Source: Ilyonectria destructans
Taxonomy: Eukaryota > Ascomycota > Sordariomycetes > Hypocreales > Nectriaceae
Assembly: GCA_020740775.1 (NCBI GenBank)
Contig: JAHEWK010000003.1
Span: forward strand, 1,736,001 to 1,800,000
Reading direction: 5' to 3'
DNA length: 64,000 bases
The position numbers were made by a program, and so were the translations under genes. Positions 1 to 34,501 of this stretch are shown one piece after another (the first letter of the stretch is position 1; each line of letters opens with the position of its first letter). The notes beneath the pieces were generated by a model. That model was not told the DNA's origin, ran no database searches, and worked only from the letters and a program-made list of their open reading frames with translations.

Positions 1-399
1 CTTGTATCCGCACAAGGTTCCGCCAAAGTCACACTCTCCTAGGCGAATATTACTCATGCAGCGCATCCCCGCGACAAACTGAGCTTTTCTCAGTTCCTCG
101 GGATCCGCGCACCGTATAGTGGTAATAAAATCGATGAGTTCTTCAGCTTTTGGCGAGTGGCTGCAGGCATCAAGGCTCCACTTCTGGAAGAATTCACACC
201 ATTTCTGGTATGCATTTGGGTGCACAGTCCCCATCCACAAATTCTCGATCTCTTCCTTCATGAGAAGATCACAAGAATCACTATCCTTTATTTTCTCTCG
301 AAAATCAGCGTAGCCGCCATACCTGAACCATTGGTAGAACTCTGCCTCCAGGATAGTCCACTCACGGCGAGCCTCCGAGACTTCAGGTACATAATGCAT
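1..399 (-). CDS. Unknown protein, 5' part only (cut by window edge)
   Basis: On the minus strand a frame is open from the window edge without a stop for more than 130 codons. The first ATG is at 399, giving a start MHYVPEVSEARREW. The encoded stretch is rich in Trp, Phe, Tyr and Cys and looks like a real protein, but I recognise no domain. The same frame stays open upstream to 525, and a pyrimidine-rich cag at 458-466 (read on the minus strand) could be an intron acceptor, so the true N-terminus may lie in another exon. The C-terminal part is outside the window. Confidence 0.5.
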   Translation of the reverse strand, partial: MHYVPEVSEARREWTILEAEFYQWFRYGGYADFREKIKDSDSCDLLMKEEIENLWMGTVHPNAYQKWCEFFQKWSLDACSHSPKAEELIDFITTIRCADPEELRKAQFVAGMRCMSNIRLGECDFGGTLCGYK

Positions 400-3300
400 A
401 GCTTTGGGTGTGCGCACTAGCGTTGCGGATTGATGGAGTGGGTCGAACTGGGTGTATCTGAAAGATGAATAATATTGGAGGAATTTTAAGGAAACATTGA
501 TGACGAGTGCGCGACGCCGTTCGCTTTATAGTTTACCAACGGTTGAAGAGCTCACAAAATACTGCCTCTGTTTTACCAATTATTTCCATGAAATAGTTGA
601 ACACTGCTCATCTATTCCAAATGTTCAGAAAATCAGGCAATCTGTCTGTGGTGATCTTGTCGACGTTCTGTCGTCAACCACTCATGAAAGTGACCGAAAG
701 GTGATCCAAAAGCGACTCAAAAATATCGAATTCACCTTTGTTTGCACACACAAGACGTATTCAAGGGCTAAGCGACGAGAAAAAACTTATTCGGGGCTAG
801 ATTACACGTTCCCAAAGAAGTGTCTATGCTGGGTTCATAAAACACTTGTTCACCTCTGCGTGTCCCGTGAATACTCAGCAAGATACAATAGTAACCTTTG
901 TATTCATTGTAGGTCTTTGTTGTGATTGTTCCCACGCATATAAATTTTGGTACTCACGAGCCGCCGAGAAATGCCACAGACGCCGGTCGAGAGGAAGAAT
1001 AAATCGTTCTCAATTATCCTTTCATTGCGATACATGATCAAATTCACTGACCATCTCGAAAACAAGCACATTTTATAATATCAGACCTTTCTGTGCTTTC
1101 ATTGTTCTACTTGAAATATCGTCCTTTGTCCACACACAGAAATACACTCGAGAAGACTCTTGTTTCAATATGAACAAAGGGAAATTGAAATCCATTGATT
1201 AGATAAGCGACGACAGCGGCGAGTGAATAGAGTTTTCACATGAGCTCTCTAGAATGCTACAGAGCATATCTTAGGCAGGTAATACTGACCTTGGAATTCG
1301 GCAGGATATTTGGTGATTATCGAGGGCAATTTGGTTGGCAGGACTCATCCTCATTAAATGTGTTGTATGTCCTTTGGTTCAGCGAACTAATTAATCATGA
1401 GCCCGTAAGTCCTTTGAGTGAGGGAAATCTGGCGTTAGAGATTTCCTATAATCAAGACAGCGACCCAGAGACCGTGGGAGAGTTTAAGCGCGTTGGGTCA
1501 CCGTTCCTACTTTGGACATGATTATCCCTCGCTTCCCAGACAATCGATGACATCCACAAAGGTGGTACTTATCAGGTTGGTTCTAGTGACGAGTTAGTAG
1601 CACAGTGTGTCCGCGTCGTAGCTTCGCTATGCGCAATTGACTAGAGCGGTACCGACTGGCGCTTTGGAGAATCGGATTTCACACCCTTCAGCTGAAAGAG
1701 ACGACGGTACCACTTTTTGGGAGTAATTCAACCCATACTAGAAAAGAAACAATAAAGTTCGAAGAAGACCTCTGGCCCCGTTCGTGTCGAGTACTTATCG
1801 CTGCGCCTCAAATCGTAGGTATGGACCCACACAACCAATGAACGTACCTCTGTTTTACCAGCCACAAATGGGTCACGATTTTCCACGGACTATACAAATA
1901 CGAGTTCGATTATGCATAGTCGACGTACTGCTCTGGTTTAATCCTACGCGGAACCCTATTCATGTTCCGTGTGTAATCGTAATCCAGTTTATGCATAATG
2001 TAGCAACCGTCTGTGTAGATTGCAATACGGAGTGAGTATTAGAAGTTCGACTGAGAAGATTAGGATTCATACAAGAATCATGCAGACCCAGCCGATTAAA
2101 GTCGTCGCAATTGAGGCTAACAGCGAATCGGACATAACTACAAGCCGGAAATTCAATCCTTCGCCATTATTCAAGACACCGTCGGCCGGGCGGTTGCATG
2201 ATCGGCCCGTCTTGGCGCGATAACAGCGGCGGCACAGCCGTACCAAGCCGGAGGCGAAACCTTTGGATAGGGGCATGCGCCGGAAAAGGCTCAATCCAGG
2301 CCACCAGGACCAACCAGGATCAACCAGGCTGGGAAATGGGGTGAACACGAAAAGTTCCATGGCCCTCACAGCACCCCGAGGGCGTGGCCAGTCCATTGGC
2401 CGAGGCGGTAGCTTCGTGGTCTGAGAAAACGGCTTGAAGCTGGGACGAGCTGGCCGCAACCACAGGGATTGCGACTATAACAGCGATAGGTTCAGCCATG
2501 AGGTCGAGCCTCGGGTCGAAGAGGATGACGACGACAGCGCACTGCCGCGACACTAGTCAATACGACAATGCCGCCTTGGCATATCAGCGCGCCGAGCGTC
2601 AGCGTGTAGCAAATTAATCGATTATTCATCATCCGAACTGCCAAGTTGACGGCCTGACTCATTTCTAGACCTCAGCCAAACAGGCAGCTTCCACCGTATT
2701 CTCACGCTGATAATGCATAGCAGAGCCTCTTTATTTAATCAACAATACTACCCACAGCCTTGTCGCTAAATACAGTTTCGTACTTTTGAATCTTATTTAC
2801 ACCGCCCGCGACGATCATTTAGGGTCCCGTAACCTTGAATATAGATAGGACCCACGCAGCATCGCATGTGGGTTCTAGAACTTGAAATGGATTTCTGCGA
2901 CGCTGCCGACCAACCAGCAGGTCCCCTTCGTAAACTCGGCTTTCCGGGTATGTGCGCGGAACAAAAAGCCCACGATACGAGCAACAAAAGCTCAGAAACG
3001 TAACCACTGTGGTGATCTCGAAACCGGTGACCCCCGTTCGGGTACCATCTTAGAAATATTAATTCCCGTCATACTAACTACTCATGCCCAGAAATATCGA
3101 CAGTGCTTCACCCTGTCCCCGGTTTCAAGTCGCTAGAGTTTGTACTTAACTTAGCGTATCTAGATGCTATCTCAAAACGGGCAAATTGTCGCAGTGATTT
3201 TAAAATAGTGGAGTTGGCTCCAGAGCCTCTAGAGACCACCTCTTTCAGCAGTGAAATGTTCCAAGTAGTGGAGGGAAACGTTCTGTCTACTCAATGGCTA

Positions 3301-3786
3301 GAGGGATCGAAATTTTAATGGGGAATAAAAAATCTCCGATGGATCAAGCTACCCAGCTGTTGCCTGCCGATCTCAGCCTTAGTGACCTGAGTGCCGATAC
3401 CTGGGTCTAGGCGCAGGTAGGACGATCCACATGCGGTGTACCCGGAACCTTGGCATGGTCATAAATGCCAAGTCATGGATTATCGCCGATGGTCTTGATT
3501 TGAGACTTGAGAGGATACTTCTCCTTGCACGGCGCTGGTTTTGAAGTGGCGGAGTTCGTATCCAGAGCGTCCAGGCGGGCCACGGTGCCCAGATTCTGAG
3601 GGACACCTCCTGAATTTAATCACACCCGAGCCTTTGCTACGGTAGCTTTCAACTGCCACGAAGGTATATGTATCTTGATATCTTTCTCTTTCACTTTCTT
3701 TTCAAACCATTAAAGCTATCAATTCTATCGAAGACCTTCTAAGCACTTCTAATCAACACAGCCGAACTGAGCCAGCATCCATCAAG
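400..3786. other. Gene-poor stretch, no supported gene
   Basis: About 3.4 kb holding only short open frames on both strands (longest 142 codons at 497-925) with no recognisable domain, no splice-joined extension and no conserved motif. The last 130 bases form the leader of the downstream synthetase gene: a pyrimidine-rich tract at about 3677-3705 followed by an A-rich ACACAGCC..CATCAAG context before the ATG. Confidence 0.5.
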
Positions 3787-6700
3787 ATGGATGAAAGACC
3801 TCTCATCCCAGATATGCCGGCTCTCATGCTCCAGCTCTATGACCTGGCTCCCTCGCAGATCCCAGAGAGTCCACAATTTCAGATGCTTCAAACGGCCGAG
3901 TTGGATAAGGTCCAGCTCTTAGCCTCAATTCCAGCAACCTCAGAGTCTTCATACCGGCCGTTACACTTCCTCTGTGTTCTCTTAACAGAAATTCATGGGC
4001 CATGGCCGACCTTTGATCTCATCAAGTGTCATACGCGACTTTTCAAAATCCTCCCAGAGGAAGCCAAGGCACGCCGCAATGTCGACTGGAGCTGGCTCGT
4101 TGACACCACCGACAAGCTTGTCAAGAAATCTTGCGCTCCATTTTCTCAGTTTATCGGCCGCGATGAGGGGCCCGCCCTTCGAGCAACAACCAGTGACTAC
4201 ATCACACATCGTGGACTGCATCGCTTTGTGTCCAACTTTCGGCTGCCAGTCATCCCTGGTCAGACGAAGCCGGTTGTTGGGATTGCTCTGCCCAACGGTC
4301 CCCTGTTAGCAGCAACTTGTATTGCCGTTACCAGTTACTATGTCGCAGCACCTATCAACCAAGCGACAGGTCCAGAGCAATTTCAAGCAGATATCCTTCA
4401 AGCCGGAGCCGATTTTATCCTGACCTCGGATGGTGACTACAAGAAACTTCAGCTAGGCTCTTGGACTACGGAGCGCAATATTCAGGTCTTCATCATAGAC
4501 TGGACTTCCGGCGACGACATCAGTATCCGGACTCTGACGGGAGGGCCTCTTCTAGATTTTGATGCGATGTCAACGGAACCTAACCAGGGAGACGACATCG
4601 GAATGATCCTATTCACCAGTGGCACATCGGGCACGAAAAAGGTGGTTCCACTGACAACGCACTCAATCATTGCGGGTATTGTGTTCGTCAAGGAGTCTTG
4701 GGGCCTGACCTCCAGCGACATCTGCCTTAATATGATGCCTCTGTATCATGTGTAAGTTGTTGGATAACCCGAATTTCGTTGCTCCAAAGCTCTAACTCTG
4801 TACGCAGTGGCGGCCTCGTTAGAAACATTTTTGCTCCTGTCTTCTCGGGCGGTTCAACGGTATGCTGTGCAGCCTTTGACCCGAACACTTTTTGGGATGT
4901 TGTTCAGGATATTCAACCAACTTGGTACTATGCCTCGCCATCGATGCATTCTCTGATCCTTGGTGAGGCAACCGGACGCCCCGAGGCATTAAAGAAGAGC
5001 CGTATTCGGCTGGCCTGTAATGCTGCCGGTGGTCTCCTACCATCACTAGCTTGTCGTTTACGAGACACATTCAACTGTGTTGTCCTTCCCAGCTACGGGA
5101 TGACAGAGTAAGTGCCCTTAGCTAGTGTTATATACTATTCCAGAACTAACATTTATCCAGATGCATGCCTATCTCCACCCCGCCTTTGAACTACCAGCTA
5201 GATCGAGAAGGCACTTCTGGAATCAGCACTGGGCCAGAGCTTGCTATTCTGGACGGGTCAGAGGCTGCAGCATCATCTGGAACAGTCGGACGAATCTGCG
5301 TGCGGGGTGAACCTGTTTTTCCTGGTTACCTGAAGCCAGACGGTACCTACGATAAGTCGCCCTTCAACAAAGACGGGTGGTTCGACACTGGCGACCTTGG
5401 ATATATGGATCCTGATGGGTATCTCTATGTCACCGGTCGCAGCAAGGAAGTCATCAATCGCGGAGGAGAATTGATCTCCCCTTTTGAGGTTGAGAATGCT
5501 ATTATCTCCGCCTCTCTATCTGATTCCCCTATCAGCGGACGAATCAGTCAAGCGCTTGTCTTCTCGGCCTGTCACGACATCTTACAGGAGGTAGTGGCAG
5601 TGGTATTGGTCTCTACAGCTAACCAGCCACGCGTAGACCTCAAGACCCTGCATGAGGCCTTAAGATCATCCTTGCAACAAGCAAAATGGCCCGTTTTGAT
5701 TACTTACATGGATGATCTTCCCAAGAAAAACAACAAGGTCCTTCGAATTCGACTTGGTCAAAGGCTGGGAATCCCCGATATTACGGACAAGATGCCATAC
5801 CTTAGCCGACATTTGGAAGCGGCATGTCCACCATGCGACACGGATCTTTCTGTCCCGATTAAGTCCTCCCCTTGCTCAGTCAACTACGAATACCTACGGT
5901 CCCAAATCGAAAAGATAGTCCCCGACACCGTCCAAGTTTATTGTCGACGAGATCCCCAAGGCGGTGGCGTTGAAGCTTTCTTGGCTCCAACAACCATCTC
6001 TGAAAAGCCAGTACAGGCTAGCGCGATCAAGGATCTCCAGCAGCAGCTGGGGCGGTCAATTGACAATTTCATGGTTCCTGGCCTGGGCCAGATTCACGCA
6101 ATGACCGCCCCATTTCCACGGGACACATACGGTAGCATCGATGAAGAGCAACTCCAAGAAGAACTCGACAAGCTCCTCCAAGCGTCAGTGCAGCAACTAG
6201 GGGTCTCTACCGAGGGATTAGTGACGAAGGCTTTTGCAGAAATCCTATCACGTCCACACGGAGATATTCCCAACAACGTCGACTTCTTTACCCTTGGTGG
6301 CGATTCTCTGCGCGCTGGGCGGCTGACGTCGGTTCTGCGTTCCCAATTCAACGTAAACATCCCAATCGGTCTGGTTTTCAACGACGGAACGGTTAAAGCC
6401 GTCGCATCCCACATTGACAAGATGACCGAGGCCGGCCCAATTGACAATGGTGATGGCAGAGACAACATCGTTGGGTGCTCCGAGACATACAGCTCTACCA
6501 ACCCAGTTCTCATGCTGGTGCAGTTGGTCCCACTTGCGTTTATCTATCCGCTTCGGCGGGCGCTCCAATGGACCATCTTCATCACGGCACTCGCGTACAG
6601 TGAATACCTACCCACCAACCACTCGATCCCAGGCAGGTTACTCAATCTGATAGCTTCTATCACATTGGCTGGTATCATTATCGAATTCATTGCACCCATC

Positions 6701-8968
6701 TTTGGAATTCTCTGCAAGTGGCTTATCATCGGCCGGCATCGTGAAGGCCTCTACCCGATGTGGGCTTTCTACCATACCCGATGGTGGCTAGTGCAGAAAA
6801 TTACGAGCATTTGCGGGCCAGGTGTTTTCGAAATCACCAATTCCACTCAGTGTCTCTACTACCGTCTTATGGGAGCTAAGATTGGTAAAAATGTGAGGCT
6901 TGGTGGAGCGGCTCTTGGGGAGTGGGATCTCTTGGAGATTGGAGATAACACTGACCTCAGCGAATGCATCTGCCGGCCTTTTGCAGTTGAAGGCAATACT
7001 ACGATGTATTTGGGACGGATTTCCATTGGAGAACATTGTTCAGTTGGCACAGCTTCTATCATTGCGCCAGGAACAACGATACCACCTAATACCTGCATTG
7101 GTCTCAATTCATCCAGCTGGGAGATGGAAGATGCGGACGAAGCGTACCGATCGTCGAGTTATATTGCGAAGCCACACTGGCTTCTAGTATGCTTATTCAC
7201 CTTACCTCTGCAGCTTTTTTCTGGATTCCTATCACTTGTGCCTTGGATGTGTGGCCTCCTCGGCATGGTAATACATGGGTCATCCGCCGGTCGATCTCCG
7301 ATTCTAAATGTCATCGACTGGTTCACACACCCACAGCGAATAGCATACCACTATCTTGCCCTCGTCTTGAAATGTTTTATTAGCCCGTTTATCATACTCG
7401 GCTTTACAATTCTGATCAAGGCGATTCTGGATATTGCATTCGGGAAGCTTGGACCTGGCTCAGCTGGGCAAGGCACTGTTGCCACCTGGAGGGCGCATCT
7501 TATTAACAGCCTCTGTCCTGTCGATCGGCTTCATGAAGTCACTGGTATGTTTGGGCAGCATTATGAGGCCACCTCAGCCGCCCTACGAATGCTGGGTGCC
7601 AAAATTGGCCAACGTGTGTACTGGCCTGGGACTGGACCTGTTATTGGTGACTACCATTTGCTAAACATTGGAGATGATGTTGTTTTCGGCTCCCGCACTC
7701 ATCTTGTTACGTCGGATATCATTGGCTCTGAGACCATCACGATTGGAGACCGGGCTATGATTGCTGATCGTGTTTGCCTTCTGCCTGGCGTCAAGATTGG
7801 AGACCGCGTTACTATGGGATCTGGTGCTTTAACAAAGAGAGGCAAGCAGTATCCAGCTAATGGGACCTACGTTGGGTCAAAGGGCGGTGATTCCGTGTGC
7901 CTATCCACTGGACGCCAATTGCAACAGCAGAAAGTCACCTCAAGGCCGATAAGCATGAAGCACATGAGCAGTTGCGATACCCTGACAGGAAAGAGTAAGG
8001 AAGCTGCCATGCCTACGCGTCTCCTCCACATCGACAGTCAAGCTACTCTCACTGGCGGAAGTGCCATTCCCGGGCAACACCGTCGTGCCACGACTAATAC
8101 CAGTGAGGACGGCATGACAGAGGAGAGCTCTGATACCGATGTCGATACCTCTACTGAGAACTCTTCACCATTTGGACGAGCTTTCTACTTGAAACAAGCT
8201 CCCTATTGGGTCTTAGGCCCGTTTACCATATTTTGTTACTCATCTTTCCTTACTCTTTTTACCTCCTTTTACTGGAATATCGCAAGCATCTCGTCGATTC
8301 AATTCATTAACGTTATCATTAAATTCCTCCCTTCTGGAACTGGCATTGGGCATGATATCTGGAGGCTCTTTGTACTTTCCTTTGGCGCCATTGCCGTCAT
8401 CACTACTGCTCAAGCGATACTCGCGCTCGCCATTGTGCTTGGTGCCAAGTGGGCCCTACTAGGCCACCGGAAGCCCGGGAATTACGATTGGGACAAGTCG
8501 TCGTATTGCCAGCGTTGGCAAGTCTTTCTTACCGTCGAGAAAATCCGCCGCAGATGCTATCAGGGTAACGGTATCCTTGGCCTACTCACCGGAACAAATT
8601 GGATTGTACTGTATTTCCGGGCAATGGGTAGTACTATTGGCAAGGATTGCGCTTTATTTGCAAATGGGACGCCGAGCTTGATGTTTACTGAGCCTGATCT
8701 GATAACCCTCGGAGATCGAGTTTCGATTGATGATGCTAGCGTTGTTGCGCACATCAATACCAGAGGGAGATTCGACTTGAATAGGCTAGAAATTGGCGAT
8801 AGGTGTGTGCTCAGAACGGGAAGCAGGCTTCTCAGTGGCGCAACCATGCAGAAAGATAGCTGCCTGCTCGAGCACACTCTTATCATGGGGGGCGACGTGG
8901 TGGAAGAGAATTCAACTATGCAGGGCTGGCCGGCAGAACCATTCTCAAGAAAGAGGGCGAATCTGTAA
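3787..8968 (+). CDS. Pls-type membrane NRPS (A-T-three LbH domains), candidate poly-lysine-type isopeptide synthetase
   Basis: Three exons, join(3787..4751, 4808..5107, 5161..8968), give 1690 residues. Adenylation domain at about 130-720 with A3-like FTSGTSGTKKVVPL, PLYHVGG (split by intron 1), SYGMTE (intron 2 within the E codon) and GWFDTGDLGYMDPDGYLYV; the A10-like motif is LPKKNNKVLRI. A carrier domain follows, with phosphopantetheine Ser804 in LGGDSLRAG. The rest, about 865-1690, alternates hydrophobic segments with three hexapeptide-repeat left-handed beta-helix domains (about 1000-1072, 1249-1319, 1598-1685). There is no classical condensation or thioesterase domain. This is the architecture of bacterial epsilon-poly-L-lysine synthetase and its fungal relatives, in which tandem membrane-tethered domains join amino acids by isopeptide bonds at a membrane. 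The substrate is inferred: the A-domain pocket cannot be read reliably by eye. It stands alone, with a nitrilase 2 kb downstream. A diamine or other amino acid product is possible. Confidence 0.88.
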
Positions 8969-17166: not shown

Positions 17167-20100
17167 ATGATGGCCAACGTCGAAAGAACTCAATCGTCCC
17201 AGGGAACTTTGGATGCAACTGCACTAGAGGATTCTGACCAAGCAACCCGATTAGGTCAGCTTGGAAGCGAATTCTTTACTAAATTCCACGAAAATCGAGA
17301 CGTGAAAGACCTAGACGATGCAATTCGCGTTACCCGCGAAGCTATCGACGCAAATTCACCTAGCCAGCATAACCAAGCAATGTTTCGATACAACATTTCT
17401 GTGTTCCTTCGGGATCGCTATGAGGCAACCAAAGAAATTGCAAACATCGAAGAGGCAATTCAATTCGGACGAGGGGCCGTCAAGTCAGTCCCACACGGCG
17501 ATCTCAATCGACCTTCTTTCTTATTCAACCTTGGGTCTCAACTTCTCCTCAAGTACTCAGTGACAGGAGAACTGGGCGACCTTGAAGAGGGAATCCAGTT
17601 TGGGAAAGAATCGATCTGTGCCACCTCAGTGGATCATCCAGATCGAAGAGCACATTTGACTGGACTTTGGAATCTTGTTCGGGCTAGATACCTGACAACA
17701 AGATTGATGAGCGACCTCCAAGACGCCATCCGAATAGGAAAGGAAACCATTGATGCAACTCCAAAGAGCACGCCAACCGAGCCATGCTGCTAAGAAGTTT
17801 TACACCGATCGTCACTGAGAGGTACGACAAGACCAGAGACCTGAGCGACCTAGAGGAGCTCATTTCGGTAATGCGAGAAGGGGTGGAAGCAACTCCGGAC
17901 GAGGAACAGTACAGGGCAGGTCTCTTGACAAACCTCGGATTTTATCTTCGGCAAAGACATTTGCAAACCAAAGCGCCATGCGACCTTGATCAAGCCATTC
18001 TGGTTGCCCGACAGGCTACCAATTCAACCCTACCGGATGATGAAAATCGAGGAAATATGTTTATAAACCTGTGTGATGGACTCTGGACTCGATATTCGAT
18101 CACGGAAAATATGACAGATCTCGACGATACCATCCAAGCTACACAGGAAGCTATCGATACTACCTCAAACAATCATCCAAGCTATGCAAGATTGCTCAGC
18201 ATGCTTAATGCTCAACTATACCAGAGGTTTGGCAGAACAGAAAGAGTGATCGATATTGACGAGAGCATTCGAATCGCGAGAAAAAAGATCAATGCAACTG
18301 AACAAGACGACCCGGAAAGATGCTTCCTGGTCACGGACCTCGGAAATCTACTTGGCGCGAGGTTCCGCAGAACAGGAGCAATTGCCGACCTTGAAGAAGC
18401 CGTTCAGTTTGGAAGGGAAGCAGTAGATGCTACTCCAGAGAGCCACCCAAAGAGGTCACGAGTCTTGAATAATCTCGCAGTTCATCTCAGCGAGAGATAT
18501 TCGAGAACAGAAACAGTGGCTGACCTCGAAGAGGCCATTCAAGTAGGGCGTGAGGCTATTACGAAAGCTATCAACGACTTCCCTGACCGAGCACAACTTC
18601 TAAGCAACCTTGGAGCTCGGCTTGTTAGTCGGTTTAAGAGAAATGGAGTGATGGCAGACGTGGATGAGGCTATCGAAGTTACAAGAGAAGGTCTCAATGC
18701 GATTCCGAAAGGAGATTCAGCTCAACTCGGATTCATGACCAATCTCGGGGCCCGCCTAAGCATCAGATTCCAGAGACTAGGGACTATGATTGACCTTGAG
18801 GAGGCTATTCATTTAACCCAGCAAGTTGTCGACATGACTCCTCCAGCCCACCCATACCGAGCACTACGACTGCAAATCATCGGAGATTTATTCAGCTTAA
18901 GATACGGGAGATCCGGGATGATGACTGACTTGGACAAGGCCATTGTAGCTTCACAGCAAGCTATCACCGAAACGCCATCAGACCACCCCGAGCGGGCGAG
19001 GCGCCTGAATGGCCTTGGAAATACACTGAGAATCAGGTATTTAAAAACAGGAGCATTGTCTGACCTGGAGGAAGCCATTCGAGTCACAAGGGAGGCCGCA
19101 AACTCAGTTCCTAGTGATCATCCAGATCGACCTGGTTTATTTAATAACCTAGGTAGTTACCTTCGTGACAAGTTCGCAAGAACGGATAAAACAGGCGATC
19201 TTGAAGAGGCCATTGAGTTTGGAAGGAAAGCGGTTTCTGCCATCTCGCCTGGCCACGAAGATCAGCGTATCTTCTGGAGCAATCTGGGGACTCTTCTTCG
19301 TACGAGATATCAGAAGACCGAACACTTGGTTGATCTTGACGAGAGTATCGAGGTTGGACGAGAAGCGGTTAAAGCTACCCCAAAAGACCATTCAGAGCGG
19401 ATGCGACCGTTGGTCAACCTTTCAGCTCATCTCCTTAGCCGATTCTCTAGAACAGAGATGATGGGCGACTTAGAAGAGGCAATTCAAGTTGCGAAGGAAG
19501 GCATCAACGCAACTCCACAGGACCACACAGAGAGAGCAGAGGTTTTGATCAACCTTGGAGATTGTCTTGCTGCGAAGTACAGGACAACAAAGTCAATTGA
19601 GGATCTAGCTTGGGCCGCTTCTCACTATCAAGAAGCCCTGCAAAACGACCCATCACCAACAACAACGCGTATTAAGGCAGGGATAAAGGCCATCGCATAC
19701 ATCGGGTGGATAGCGAATTGGCAGCGTGCCTACGAGATATCAGAAGTTGTTGTAGAGCTCGTTCCTAAACTGACAATACGATCACTCAACAACATGGATA
19801 AGCAACACCTCCTTGGCCAGATAGCCGGTCTTGCTTCCGACGCTGCGGCCACGGCTTTCCATGCCGGGAAAGGTCCACTTTCTGCACTGGGCTTTCTTGA
19901 GCTGGGACGTGGTGTTATTGCTACGTCCCTCGAGGAGATTCGAACAGATGACCAAGATTTGCTGGACCAACACCCCATACTTGCAGAGAAATTTGCATGT
20001 CTGCGAGATGAGTTGGAAATCACTGTCCAAGGCACTACCGCCGGCAATGACGGCGAGACGTTGTGGCAGACACAATCACAGCGTCGCTACGAGAAAGGGC

Positions 20101-21362
20101 AAGAGCTGGACCAGCTGATTTCTGATATTCGCAAGATGCCTGGATTCGAAGACTTTTTGCGTCCGCCAAGCGAAGATGCTATGCGCGATGCTGCAAGATG
20201 TGGCCCTATCGCAATTGTCAACGTCAGCAGGTTCCGCTGCGATGCGATACTTGTCGACCAGGATCAAATTCGGTCAGTCCAGTTATCACAACTCACCAGT
20301 AATGAGATCGAGCAGAGGGCCCTTAGGGGCAATCTAGGGAGTCTAGAGATTCTTAAATGGCTCTGGGATGTTATTGCTAGGCCAATTCTAGACACCCTGG
20401 GCTTCACTGGCCCTCCCTCTTCCAACGATTGGCCTCACATATGGTGGATCCCGACGGGACCTTTGAGCAAATTCCCACTCCATGCAGCTGGACATCACCT
20501 GAACACGTCACACACGGTGCTTGACAGGGTTATGTCATCCTACAGTTCGTCTGTAAAAACTCTCATCCATGGGCGAAGGCGTCCTGTGACTCCTGTCATT
20601 CCGACATACTCGCCAGGATCACAACTCTCGGCCGAAGTCGTTCTTGTAGCTATGGAGCATACATCTGAAAGCTCGTGGCTACCGTTTGCGACAAAGGAGG
20701 TAGAGATATTACGGCAGATGTGCCACTCAATGAAGCTGAATCCTGTTGAGCCGAGGCGACAAAAGCAAGACATCCTACCGCATTTGACAAAATGCAAGAT
20801 CTTCCATTTTGCGGGCCATGGGCACACAAACACCAATGATCCGTCCAAGAGTTATCTGCTTTTAGAAGATGGTCGTGAAAATGCCCTAACCGTTGCCGAT
20901 CTGTTGGAGATAAACCTGCGCAAGCATTCTCCCTATCTTGCCTACCTCTCAGCTTGCGGGACCGGGCGAATCAACAATACAAAATTTGTCGATGAGAGCA
21001 TTCACCTAATTAGCGGGTGCCAACTAGCAGGATTCCGGCACGTTATTGGTACTTTGTGGGAGGTCAGTGATGAACTTTGCGTAGATATGGCTAGGATAAC
21101 ATACGAGGGGTTGAGAGACGGAGGCATGACGGATGAATCGGTATGCCTAGGGCTCCACAAAGCCTCTCGGCAACTCCGAGATCAGTGGCTGGCCGCTCGA
21201 GCAAAAGTCAGGGATGGAAATCAACTGTTGGAAAGGCGAGTTGAACAGGACATAGGTTCACAGAACATAGTTGAGAGGGATACGAGAGATGTGATTCTCG
21301 ACGATGACGAAGAGGAGGTGGGATGGGCACATTGGGTTCCATATGTTCATTTTGGCGTTTGA
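17167..21362 (+). pseudogene. TPR-CHAT protein (clan CD protease-like) with one frameshift
   Basis: Two frames form one gene: 17167-17793 and 17784-21362. At about 17768 the first frame reads ATPK and then goes wrong, while the next frame continues EHANRAMLLRSF; one missing base in the AAAG run explains this, and no intron fits. The N-terminal part has 18 degenerate TPR-like repeats of about 47 residues, each marked by a D-[LIV]-[DE]-[ED]-A-I core followed by an alanine-rich ATP-DHP-RA turn. The C-terminal CHAT domain (about 20180-21350) keeps the caspase-like pair: His in KIFHFAGHGHTN (about 20800) and Cys in LSACGTG (about 20950). CHAT proteases in bacteria are TPR-regulated death or defence effectors; fungal TPR-CHAT proteins are suspected of similar roles. 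The catalytic pair is intact downstream of the break, so the shift could be an assembly error, a recent lesion or a recoding site. Confidence 0.8.
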
Positions 21363-31686: not shown

Positions 31687-32539
31687 GGTCGTAAGAAGCT
31701 CTGGGTGTGATGATGGTATGATGGTGTTTATCCTGTGTGGACTGATGCTTCCTGGTTGGAGGTATCGGGGTGTGATCAGAGGTGTGGATTATAGAAAGTT
31801 CAGATTTACTCAGGGAGGATGAGCTAGAATTTATACCATTGGGCTGCCTAATTGAAGTGTTCGATAGAACATTGGGACACTATGACAATCCAGGATGGAT
31901 TTGTACTCATCCATCTTTGTCAAAGGAACATGTTGAAACAGACAATCTTCCGAACGCACGACGACGTTCAAGAACAGTCACTCAACATAGCTTGTTACTC
32001 ATGAGTCTTGGAAACGGCACAGCCAATAGCGAAATAACATGGAATACATGGAGGTTCGTGCTGGGTGTAGCACTAAAGGTTTGTCTCAATTGTTTGAAAA
32101 CACTGTATGGCTTTGATCAATCTGATAATATTGAGTAAAGCTATAAAAAAAAATGGAGGAATGCCGTGCTAATCACAGCTCTCGATTTCATCAGATCTGC
32201 ACTTTGATATGCACTTCGCCCCGCCGCAGCCTCAATTTCCCACCTGCCCAACTGCAATGATGCCTGATAATCACGGTGTTCACTGCAACGTAAGCCATGT
32301 TCCACTGCCCTTGTATTACCCCGCCCCTAGCAGAAGGCAGATTTGACCTCACTCACATTGAATGTCAGCAGCCGAGGAAGCACTCATCTTCCAGGTTCCA
32401 TCATTATATCCTAAGAATTAATTCTCTTTTACAAACTACCTTGCCAGCCTGGATCCCGTCTACATCCCCGATACCATTGTCTAGCGACCAACCACATCTT
32501 GCAACCCGGAGCACGCTGCCGTTCACTGCTGGATGCGCC
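31687..32539. other. Divergent promoter region
   Basis: Shared upstream region of the 2EXR-like gene (minus) and the caspase-like gene (plus). An open frame extends the caspase ORF upstream to 32297, but its residues look like translated leader sequence (Pro/Ser/Thr/Leu rich). Confidence 0.45.
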
Positions 32540-34501
32540 ATGGCAGAACATCGCGACATCGTTCAGCACCACGCGGTTTTGATCGGAATTGATTCTTATC
32601 CCGACAGGCCCCTATATGGCTGTGTACAAGATGTTCGGGAAATTAAATCCCTTCTTGAGGTCCAGTCGCTGCCTGTGAACGTACACACGTTGGTCGGAGT
32701 CCGTAACATCAACGACGGGGCATGCACTCCAGCTGAACGCAACGCGCGTTTGCCAACATACGAGAATGTTATTTCTGCTTTCCAGATCGTTCTTTCTCTC
32801 GCAAACCCTGGGGATTTTGTCTACATTCACTACGCTGGACACGGGACTCGAGGGGATCCGACGAGCAAGTTTTCGAATGAATCCACAGGAGACCTCGCGT
32901 TGGTTTTACTTGATGAAAAATCCGAGGATGGCGTGAGGCTTCTGTGGGGTCACAGGCTCGCCCTCTTACTGAATGGCATGGTTGTGAAGCGATTGGCTGT
33001 CACCCTTGTCCTCGACTGTTGTTTCTCCGCGAGCGTGTACCGCCACGACAACCCCGGTGTCCGTTTTCTACCATACGACCCTGAGGCCGGTTCAAAGTTC
33101 TCCTCGGATCCGGACGATATTTTGGAAGATGAGAAGCTTGATCTACCTACAAGCCGCGACGCTTCTATGCTACCAAACTGGCTCATCAACCCAGATGGAT
33201 ATGCCATCCTCACGGCCTGTGGGCCACACGAAGAAGCGATTGAATTCAAACCAAAGAATGGACCTAAACACGGGGCCCTTTGTTATTTTCTTCTCCCTTT
33301 GATCAGAAGCGGTGGCCTCACAAAAAAACACAAGGACATCTATCATTACCTGTGCGCCAAGTTCCGAGAATCTACCCTGCAACAAAACCCGGTATTGTAT
33401 GGGAACAAAGACCAAGGCTTTTTCGGTCGCATCACCGGAAAATCCACAAGCACCCCAATTTCGATTGTCAAGAGGGGCAAGAGTCTTGAGTTGCAAGCGG
33501 GCAAAGCTCATGGTGTTTGTACCGGTGATCAGTTTGCCGTATACCCTTCCGACCTGGCAGAAACCGCCTCTAGACCAGCAGGGGAATTGGTTCTTGCTAG
33601 GGTCTCCCAAGTCAAAGCTTTGACATCAGATCTTGAGCTACTGGATGGATCGCCCACTGTCCAAGTCCAGACCGGGTGGATGGCAAGATCACACATTCGA
33701 TCTTTGCTTCACAAATTTCCGATACAGCTTGCATCCAACCTGTCAAATTTAGAGGAATGGATGGCAATTCTGGCTGAAAGATTGCTTGATGGTTATACCA
33801 GCCAGGGGCGCTCTTCGTGCTCATTTCAGGTGGTGCTGAACAACGGAGAGTATGAGATCCTGGACAGTTCTGGTCAAAATATGCTCAATCTTCCAACTAT
33901 GCCACAAGATCGAACTGACGTCAGTTACATCTGCGATATCTTGGAGCACTTGGCTCGATTCAAGTTGGTCGAAGACATTGCCAACGAGACGCCCCAGGAC
34001 TCTTTCCGAGATTCAATTGATGCCAAGATAATTACCCCCGCCGGCAGCATTTACACTCCAGGATCGGTAGTAGAACTCGAACAGGACGAAAGTGCAAAAT
34101 ACACATTCGAGTTACAAATCTCAAACAAGGGGACAGAGAGTCTTTACGCGTTTCTGTACAACATGGGACCTTTCTGGCAGGTTGAGGATCTTTACCGTGG
34201 CACGTACGAAGTCATCCCACCGCAGAATCGGAGTGAAATGTTTACGGGCACATTTCGGAAGAAGTTGAAGACGAGCATACCAGTTGAGATGCTAGACAAG
34301 GGGCACCTTCAATGCGAAGACATCATCAAAGTCTTCATCACATCTCAGCCGACTTCATTCGATCTCCTGGACTTACCCAAGATCGACGGAATACCCAAGA
34401 AGAGTTCAAGCAGCAGGACTGGTGAAGGGGGGCCGAATCTCTCTGAGGATTGGGTTGCCCTGAATTTTCATATTCGAACTTCAGTAAATGAGGAGTTTTG
34501 A
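32540..34501 (+). CDS. Caspase-like (peptidase C14) domain protein
   Basis: I chose the ATG at 32540, which has a strong CGCCATGGC context and directly precedes the domain, giving 653 residues; the frame is open further up to 32297. The caspase fold begins HHAVLIGIDSYPDRPLYGCVQDV. The dyad is visible: His101 in YIHYAGHGTRG and Cys161 in VLDCCFSASV, the D-x-C arrangement of metacaspase-like enzymes. After the peptidase domain (about 1-310) comes a second region with SLELQAGKAHGVCTGDQFAVYP and a C-terminal beta-rich part with LYAFLYNMGPFWQVEDLY. This two-part layout recurs in large fungal caspase-domain proteins. Such enzymes are linked to regulated cell death and stress. The neighbourhood with CHAT and NLR-like genes suggests the same here, by inference. 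Confidence 0.88.
   Translation: MAEHRDIVQHHAVLIGIDSYPDRPLYGCVQDVREIKSLLEVQSLPVNVHTLVGVRNINDGACTPAERNARLPTYENVISAFQIVLSLANPGDFVYIHYAGHGTRGDPTSKFSNESTGDLALVLLDEKSEDGVRLLWGHRLALLLNGMVVKRLAVTLVLDCCFSASVYRHDNPGVRFLPYDPEAGSKFSSDPDDILEDEKLDLPTSRDASMLPNWLINPDGYAILTACGPHEEAIEFKPKNGPKHGALCYFLLPLIRSGGLTKKHKDIYHYLCAKFRESTLQQNPVLYGNKDQGFFGRITGKSTSTPISIVKRGKSLELQAGKAHGVCTGDQFAVYPSDLAETASRPAGELVLARVSQVKALTSDLELLDGSPTVQVQTGWMARSHIRSLLHKFPIQLASNLSNLEEWMAILAERLLDGYTSQGRSSCSFQVVLNNGEYEILDSSGQNMLNLPTMPQDRTDVSYICDILEHLARFKLVEDIANETPQDSFRDSIDAKIITPAGSIYTPGSVVELEQDESAKYTFELQISNKGTESLYAFLYNMGPFWQVEDLYRGTYEVIPPQNRSEMFTGTFRKKLKTSIPVEMLDKGHLQCEDIIKVFITSQPTSFDLLDLPKIDGIPKKSSSSRTGEGGPNLSEDWVALNFHIRTSVNEEF

Follow-up and report, generated by a model that had tools for sequence, protein, structure and literature searches.

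A probable polymalate-type polyester synthetase of Pls-like build in Ilyonectria destructans

What kind of polymer, if any, is made by the enzyme encoded at positions 3787..8968 of this window, the 64,000 nucleotides of Ilyonectria destructans contig JAHEWK010000003.1 analysed here? A sequence-only reading had placed in the gene one adenylation (A) domain and one carrier with Ser804, followed by membrane segments alternating with three beta-helices and lacking a condensation or thioesterase domain, and had proposed from this layout a relative of the bacterial polylysine synthetase Pls making a cationic, isopeptide-linked poly-amino acid. The coordinates, Ser804 and the domain order were correct when checked by splice reconstruction, Pfam matching and alignment, and AlphaFold bore out the alternation of membrane segments and beta-helices; the proposed product fared less well. 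Our favoured interpretation is that the gene probably encodes a membrane-bound poly(beta-L-malate)-type polyester synthetase, of the type of the fungal polymalic acid (PMA) synthetase, and polymalic acid or another acidic polyester is a likelier product than a polylysine-like antimicrobial.

The first line of evidence comes from the A domain (4162..5815, introns included, residues ~126–640, forward strand, like all parts of the gene). When residues 111–640 were compared with solved structures by phmmer, the top match was the oxalyl-coenzyme A (CoA) synthetase 6qjz (3.9e-59), followed by the oxalate-CoA ligases 5ie0 (1.6e-56), 8aff (6.6e-47) and 8atd (5.1e-35), then by malonyl-CoA synthetases (1.6e-32) and by other acyl-activating enzymes (1.3e-28 and weaker). 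By these matches the A domain belongs with the oxalate/malonate-CoA ligases; its type is that of a dicarboxylate ligase, a class assignment from which malate specificity is not provable by sequence alone. BLASTP against the A domains of five bacterial Pls proteins gave weak matches, 2e-6 at best, and profile comparison with hhalign gave a probability of 99.7%, which confirms common ancestry. The PosA enzyme of Acinetobacter relies on Asp217 and Glu221 for contact with both amines of its substrate, and loses its activity when either residue is mutated (PMC10522769). The corresponding loop reads A-F-D-x-S-x-E in all five bacterial Pls proteins and NMMPLYHVGGLVRNIFAPVFSGGS in the query. Our family alignment comprises 176 rows (the query and those 175 of 196 homologues that are 1500–1900 aa long), five of which are too short in the loop to be scored; the loop, residues 315–338, is free of acidic residues in 170 of the 171 scored, the remaining row having Asp at the first position. 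Arg327 and Asn328 are present in every row with a letter there (173/173), where 6qjz has Ala-Gly, and Lys614 occurs in all of the 176 rows but one (175), which has a gap there. We take Val322 to be the structural equivalent of the Pls aspartate, a column occupied by Val in 160, Ile in 13 and Met in one of 174 rows; MAFFT, BLASTP and hhalign disagree by a residue or two on this register, and our argument therefore uses the entire loop. Residue 320, immediately before His321, varies by group (Tyr in 79, Asn in 55, Phe in 25 and His in 15 of 174 rows), a possible sign that the family handles more than one substrate.

The second line of evidence is the C-terminal half, a Pls-type polymerase domain (6503..8965, residues 870–1690). 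It matches the NCBIfam profile TIGR02353 (Pls/PosA NRPS_term_dom) in three stretches with 203.6 bits and an E-value of 5e-60, short of the curated cut-off of 423.1, and BLASTP aligns residues ~876–1681 with a Sphingomonas Pls over 838 columns (23% identity, 2e-30). In a control set of 14 well-known genomes the profile gives sub-cut-off matches in most (13 genomes with matches, one of them over the cut-off), so that a weak match alone means little; the three stretches together with the 838-column alignment nevertheless support homology of this half to the Pls/PosA domain. An AlphaFold model of residues 856–1690, built on a 37-row alignment (36 homologues and the piece from the window), has a mean predicted local distance difference test score of 81.3 and a predicted template-modelling score of 0.80, with an unreliable linker at model residues 485–570. 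It places three long helix pairs in alternation with three hexapeptide beta-helices: helix pair 1 (6527..6730, residues 878–902 and 911–945), beta-helix 1 (6878..7120, residues ~995–1075), helix pair 2 (7178..7441, residues 1095–1125 and 1146–1182), beta-helix 2 (7598..7855, residues ~1235–1320, also a Pfam Hexapep match), helix pair 3 (8219..8461, residues 1442–1475 and 1484–1522) and beta-helix 3 (8618..8941, residues ~1575–1682). The same arrangement is described for a PosA model (PMC10522769). A simple hydropathy scan agrees in part only: it misses the first helix and helix 5, and the segments that it marks include two outside the domain. Foldseek retrieved hexapeptide acetyltransferases, the maltose O-acetyltransferase 3srt being best (5e-4), and serine acetyltransferases, each match covering part of the model. 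His1619 in the third beta-helix (codon from 8750) is shared by all five bacterial Pls proteins and by every fungal row that has a letter in its column (174 of 174), making it a candidate catalytic residue. Net charge of the domain was dropped as a sign of a polyanionic or polycationic product: the four fungal rows compared lie between +9 and +24 and the five bacterial ones between −7 and +13, and the balance of conserved Arg and Lys to Asp and Glu (19 to 15 in fungi, 4 to 5 in bacteria) was not clear enough either.

We favour a polyester because the A domain lies nearest to dicarboxylate CoA ligases, with a substrate loop devoid of acidic residues and a conserved Arg327, and because the Pls-type polymerase domain resembles O- and other hexapeptide acetyltransferases in fold, as far as those partial matches extend. 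Our working hypothesis is that the A domain would adenylate a small hydroxy acid with two carboxyl groups, L-malate being the likeliest, which would then be loaded onto the phosphopantetheine of Ser804. The domain of six helices and three beta-helices would link the monomers through O-acyl transfer, in which a malate hydroxyl attacks the thioester of a second malate, perhaps at His1619, and the growing polyanion would perhaps be moved along or through the membrane, to give poly(beta-L-malic acid) or a close polyester; we infer the monomer, the direction of growth, the catalytic role and the export alike.

The nearest functional precedent for such an enzyme is found in Aureobasidium. Its PMA synthetase is described as a nonribosomal peptide synthetase (NRPS)-like protein that combines an A domain, a carrier and a C-like domain with six membrane segments and has no thioesterase; the gene comprises 5049 bp and is under the control of Ca2+/Crz1 (PMC9210645, PMC11905612). 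Aureobasidium pullulans is a polymalate producer, and our searches recovered from it a homologue of 1690 aa (P0125, from a cluster of 126 sequences) with the same domains as the query. It aligns end to end with the closest Ilyonectria homologue (P0001) at 49% identity over 1662 columns. Its agreement with the query extends to 87 of the 97 core motif positions and, within the A domain, to 306 of 514 positions. The published 5049-bp gene fits this 1690-aa type rather than the 3.9-kb type of the Epichloe enzyme Epls, and by size and build P0125 is a natural candidate, though not a proven one, for the PMA synthetase.

Several points weigh against the polymalate assignment. That P0125 corresponds to the characterised PMA synthetase of Aureobasidium melanogenum (QHD40385.1) is something we infer from size, domains and helices. 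In A. pullulans NRRL 62031 two separate clusters are reported, an NRPS-like one to which PMA is assigned and a non-alpha poly-amino-acid (NAPAA) one (PMC11905612), and P0125 could belong to the latter. The review places the six helices N-terminally (PMC9210645), whereas those of the query are C-terminal. Restoring the PMA gene in a deletion strain brought back only one third of the PMA. Penicillium and Physarum, both reported PMA producers, are absent from the names in the matches listed, many rows of which are unnamed. Finally, only about half of the residues are identical between the query and its Aureobasidium homologue, and the monomer could have changed.

The best-placed alternative is that the enzyme is of the same class and makes a polyester of a different hydroxy acid, such as citramalate, tartrate or a beta-hydroxy acid. 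We regard it as unlikely, but as the strongest rival: the A-domain class suits acidic substrates generally, and the group-wise variation at residue 320 could mean several substrates, but malate alone has a producing homologue in prospect and the core motif positions are largely common with Aureobasidium. Less probable still is that the protein is a membrane acyltransferase which moves a carrier-bound dicarboxylic acyl group to a cell-wall or lipid acceptor and forms no polymer. Hexapeptide beta-helices are indeed usual in sugar and serine acetyltransferases, which provide the best fold matches; yet the entire C-terminal half is homologous to known homopolymerases, and a polymalate role has been reported for an enzyme of this build (PMC9210645). 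A cationic isopeptide poly-amino-acid synthetase like Pls, PosA or Epls is very improbable, since, although the layout of A domain, carrier and three helix pairs each with a beta-helix is common to all and the C-terminal half is homologous, the A domain is of another class, its pocket has Arg327 and neither of the amine-binding acidic residues that are both essential in PosA, and the C-terminal score stays below the curated cut-off.

The sequence-only reading was supported as to a Pls-type, carrier-dependent membrane homopolymer synthetase, for which the TIGR02353 match, BLASTP and the AlphaFold model all speak, and not supported as to a diamino-acid monomer and a polycation, because the pocket lacks the very acidic residues whose absence that reading had itself set as a refutation. 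A polylysine or polyornithine synthetase was rejected because of A-domain class and the missing acidic residues, and a plain oxalyl-CoA synthetase, the annotation borne by some relatives, because of fusion to a carrier and polymerase domain.

The gene itself was reconstructed as three exons which, joined across GT/AG introns, give a protein of 1690 aa whose predicted start matches the N-terminus of P0001. Exon 1 (3787..4751) encodes residues 1–321 and two bases of codon 322, that is an N-terminal region of ~125 residues, for which Pfam gave no credible match, and the first part of the A domain, identified by its AMP-binding match. Intron 1 (4752..4807) splits the Val322 codon within the substrate loop, and its removal restores the frame in agreement with the homologues; exon 2 (4808..5107) runs from the end of the loop, with Arg327-Asn328, to YGMTE, and after intron 2 (5108..5160) exon 3 (5161..8968) carries everything from the end of the A domain to the stop codon. 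The AMP-binding, PP-binding and Hexapep families are all Pfam matches in the two large exons, and no condensation or thioesterase family was matched in profile scans of the gene and protein (the best 25 of 57 and the best 25 of 107 families). The carrier (6206..6430), supported by its PP-binding match and by alignment, has its Ser804 codon at 6305–6307, and this residue is Ser in all 176 aligned rows. Between it and the A domain lies a stretch (5831..6205, residues ~646–770) that is probably a relict A-subdomain left after replacement of an older A core. Residues ~672–841, carrier included, align to the ends of NRPS modules (2vsq, 6e-9; 6mfz, 9e-9), Ser747 stands at the position expected for the A10 lysine, in a column whose six most frequent residues do not include Lys, and a Pfam scan of the linker piece matched the carrier only.

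How widely is such an enzyme distributed? Three homologue searches, with about 8000 candidates scored in each, gave 1029, 1053 and 872 matches, 120 of them listed each time. The closest among the matches listed is P0001 of Ilyonectria sp. (93% identical by BLASTP, 96% on tree columns), and relatives of similar length occur there in Fusarium, Trichoderma, Colletotrichum, Verticillium, Metarhizium, Elsinoe, Phlyctema, Dactylellina and Uncinocarpus, in lichen fungi such as Trapelia and in the chytrids Geranomyces and Thoreauomyces. Among filamentous fungi the family is thus common. A quickly built tree with 59 rows (the query and 58 homologues chosen for named taxa; support below 80% on 11 of 56 inner branches) mainly follows taxonomy, which suggests mostly vertical descent with duplications, although it sets the chytrids among the Ascomycota rows and is rooted at the midpoint. 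In the host genome assembly (71.7 Mb) a second member lies on contig 1 (1833800–1840600, gene at ~953–6135 of the locus), 74–76% identical to the query protein and 92.5–95% to Ilyonectria P0002, and is by these identities a duplication shared with Ilyonectria. A search of the host genome with TIGR02353 found the two family genes and, among the candidates passing a loose prefilter, four other matches of at most 30.5 bits and no classical Pls gene.

It is tempting to go further, and we offer tentatively, as somewhat less than an even bet, that an overlooked, mostly vertically inherited acidic-polyester synthetase exists in filamentous fungi at large and in some chytrids, which arose when a homopolymerase of Pls type had its amino-acid A core exchanged for an A domain of the oxalate-ligase type, with part of the old domain left as a scar in front of the carrier. 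If so, polymalate-like polyesters would be a general fungal product and not an Aureobasidium speciality, and one polymerase fold would serve amide and ester homopolymers. In the open-access literature, to which our search extended, we found neither a link of PMA synthetase to the Pls polymerase domain nor its spread in filamentous fungi. At this locus the object of the search shifts from a polycation with antimicrobial action to a biodegradable, acidic polyester. In many fungal genomes, genes that bear the label oxalate-CoA ligase or peroxisomal-coenzyme A synthetase, as several of the listed relatives do, may be polymer synthetases. The physiological role of polymalate in fungi is said not to be fully understood (PMC9210645); if members outside Aureobasidium make it, tractable species, Trichoderma reesei for example, would allow that role to be tested.

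Elsewhere in the window, seven of ten scanned open reading frames gave matches (carbon-nitrogen hydrolase, RNase T2, CHAT/TPR, DUF7779, caspase-like and GH16), and none of these indicates a substrate. The TPR protein (17784–21362) has a CHAT protease domain, and a separate protein (32297–34501) has a caspase domain; both may belong to fungal systems of self-recognition or cell death. Adenylation-domain matches on contigs 12 and 34 of the host lie within open frames of 12667 aa and 11613 aa, respectively, which represent very long NRPS genes. Among bacteria, plasmid-borne Pls genes adjoin a phosphopantetheinyl transferase gene (L009, 5902–6459; L011, 6489–7106), and in Skermanella (L012, 917–2209) a diaminobutyrate transaminase gene directly precedes the Pls gene, which suggests poly-diaminobutyrate as the product there.

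Comparison with known systems places the query between three kinds of enzyme. With the cationic homo-poly-amino-acid synthetases (Pls of Streptomyces, PosA of Acinetobacter, Epls of Epichloe) it shares the carrier and the domain of six helices and three beta-helices, without condensation or thioesterase domain, but its A domain is of another class, lacks the acidic pocket residues and is followed by an extra relict A-subdomain; the annotated full-length bacterial Pls proteins compared have ~1340–1370 aa against its 1690. The fungal clusters of the PosA study have fewer than 1500 residues (PMC10522769), and Epls of Epichloe, with a proven cationic product, a 3.9-kb gene and a conserved lysine pocket (PMC7179176), is a different protein from this 1690-aa type. 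The best solved relatives of the query A domain are the oxalate-CoA ligases and oxalyl-CoA synthetases (AAE3, Pcs60) and the malonyl-CoA synthetases, with Ala-Gly in 6qjz against Arg327-Asn328 of the query; all of these are stand-alone CoA ligases, whereas the query A domain is fused to a carrier and a membrane domain. The fungal ligase presumably has a peroxisomal SKL-like C-terminus, and the query ends in SRKRANL. The query shares with the Aureobasidium PMA synthetase an A domain, a carrier, a C-like domain and a membrane part of six segments, as well as the absence of a thioesterase and a size of ~1690 aa (~5 kb of coding sequence); the latter differs in its helices, N-terminal in the review's account (PMC9210645), and, if P0125 is indeed that enzyme, in being about half identical to the query.

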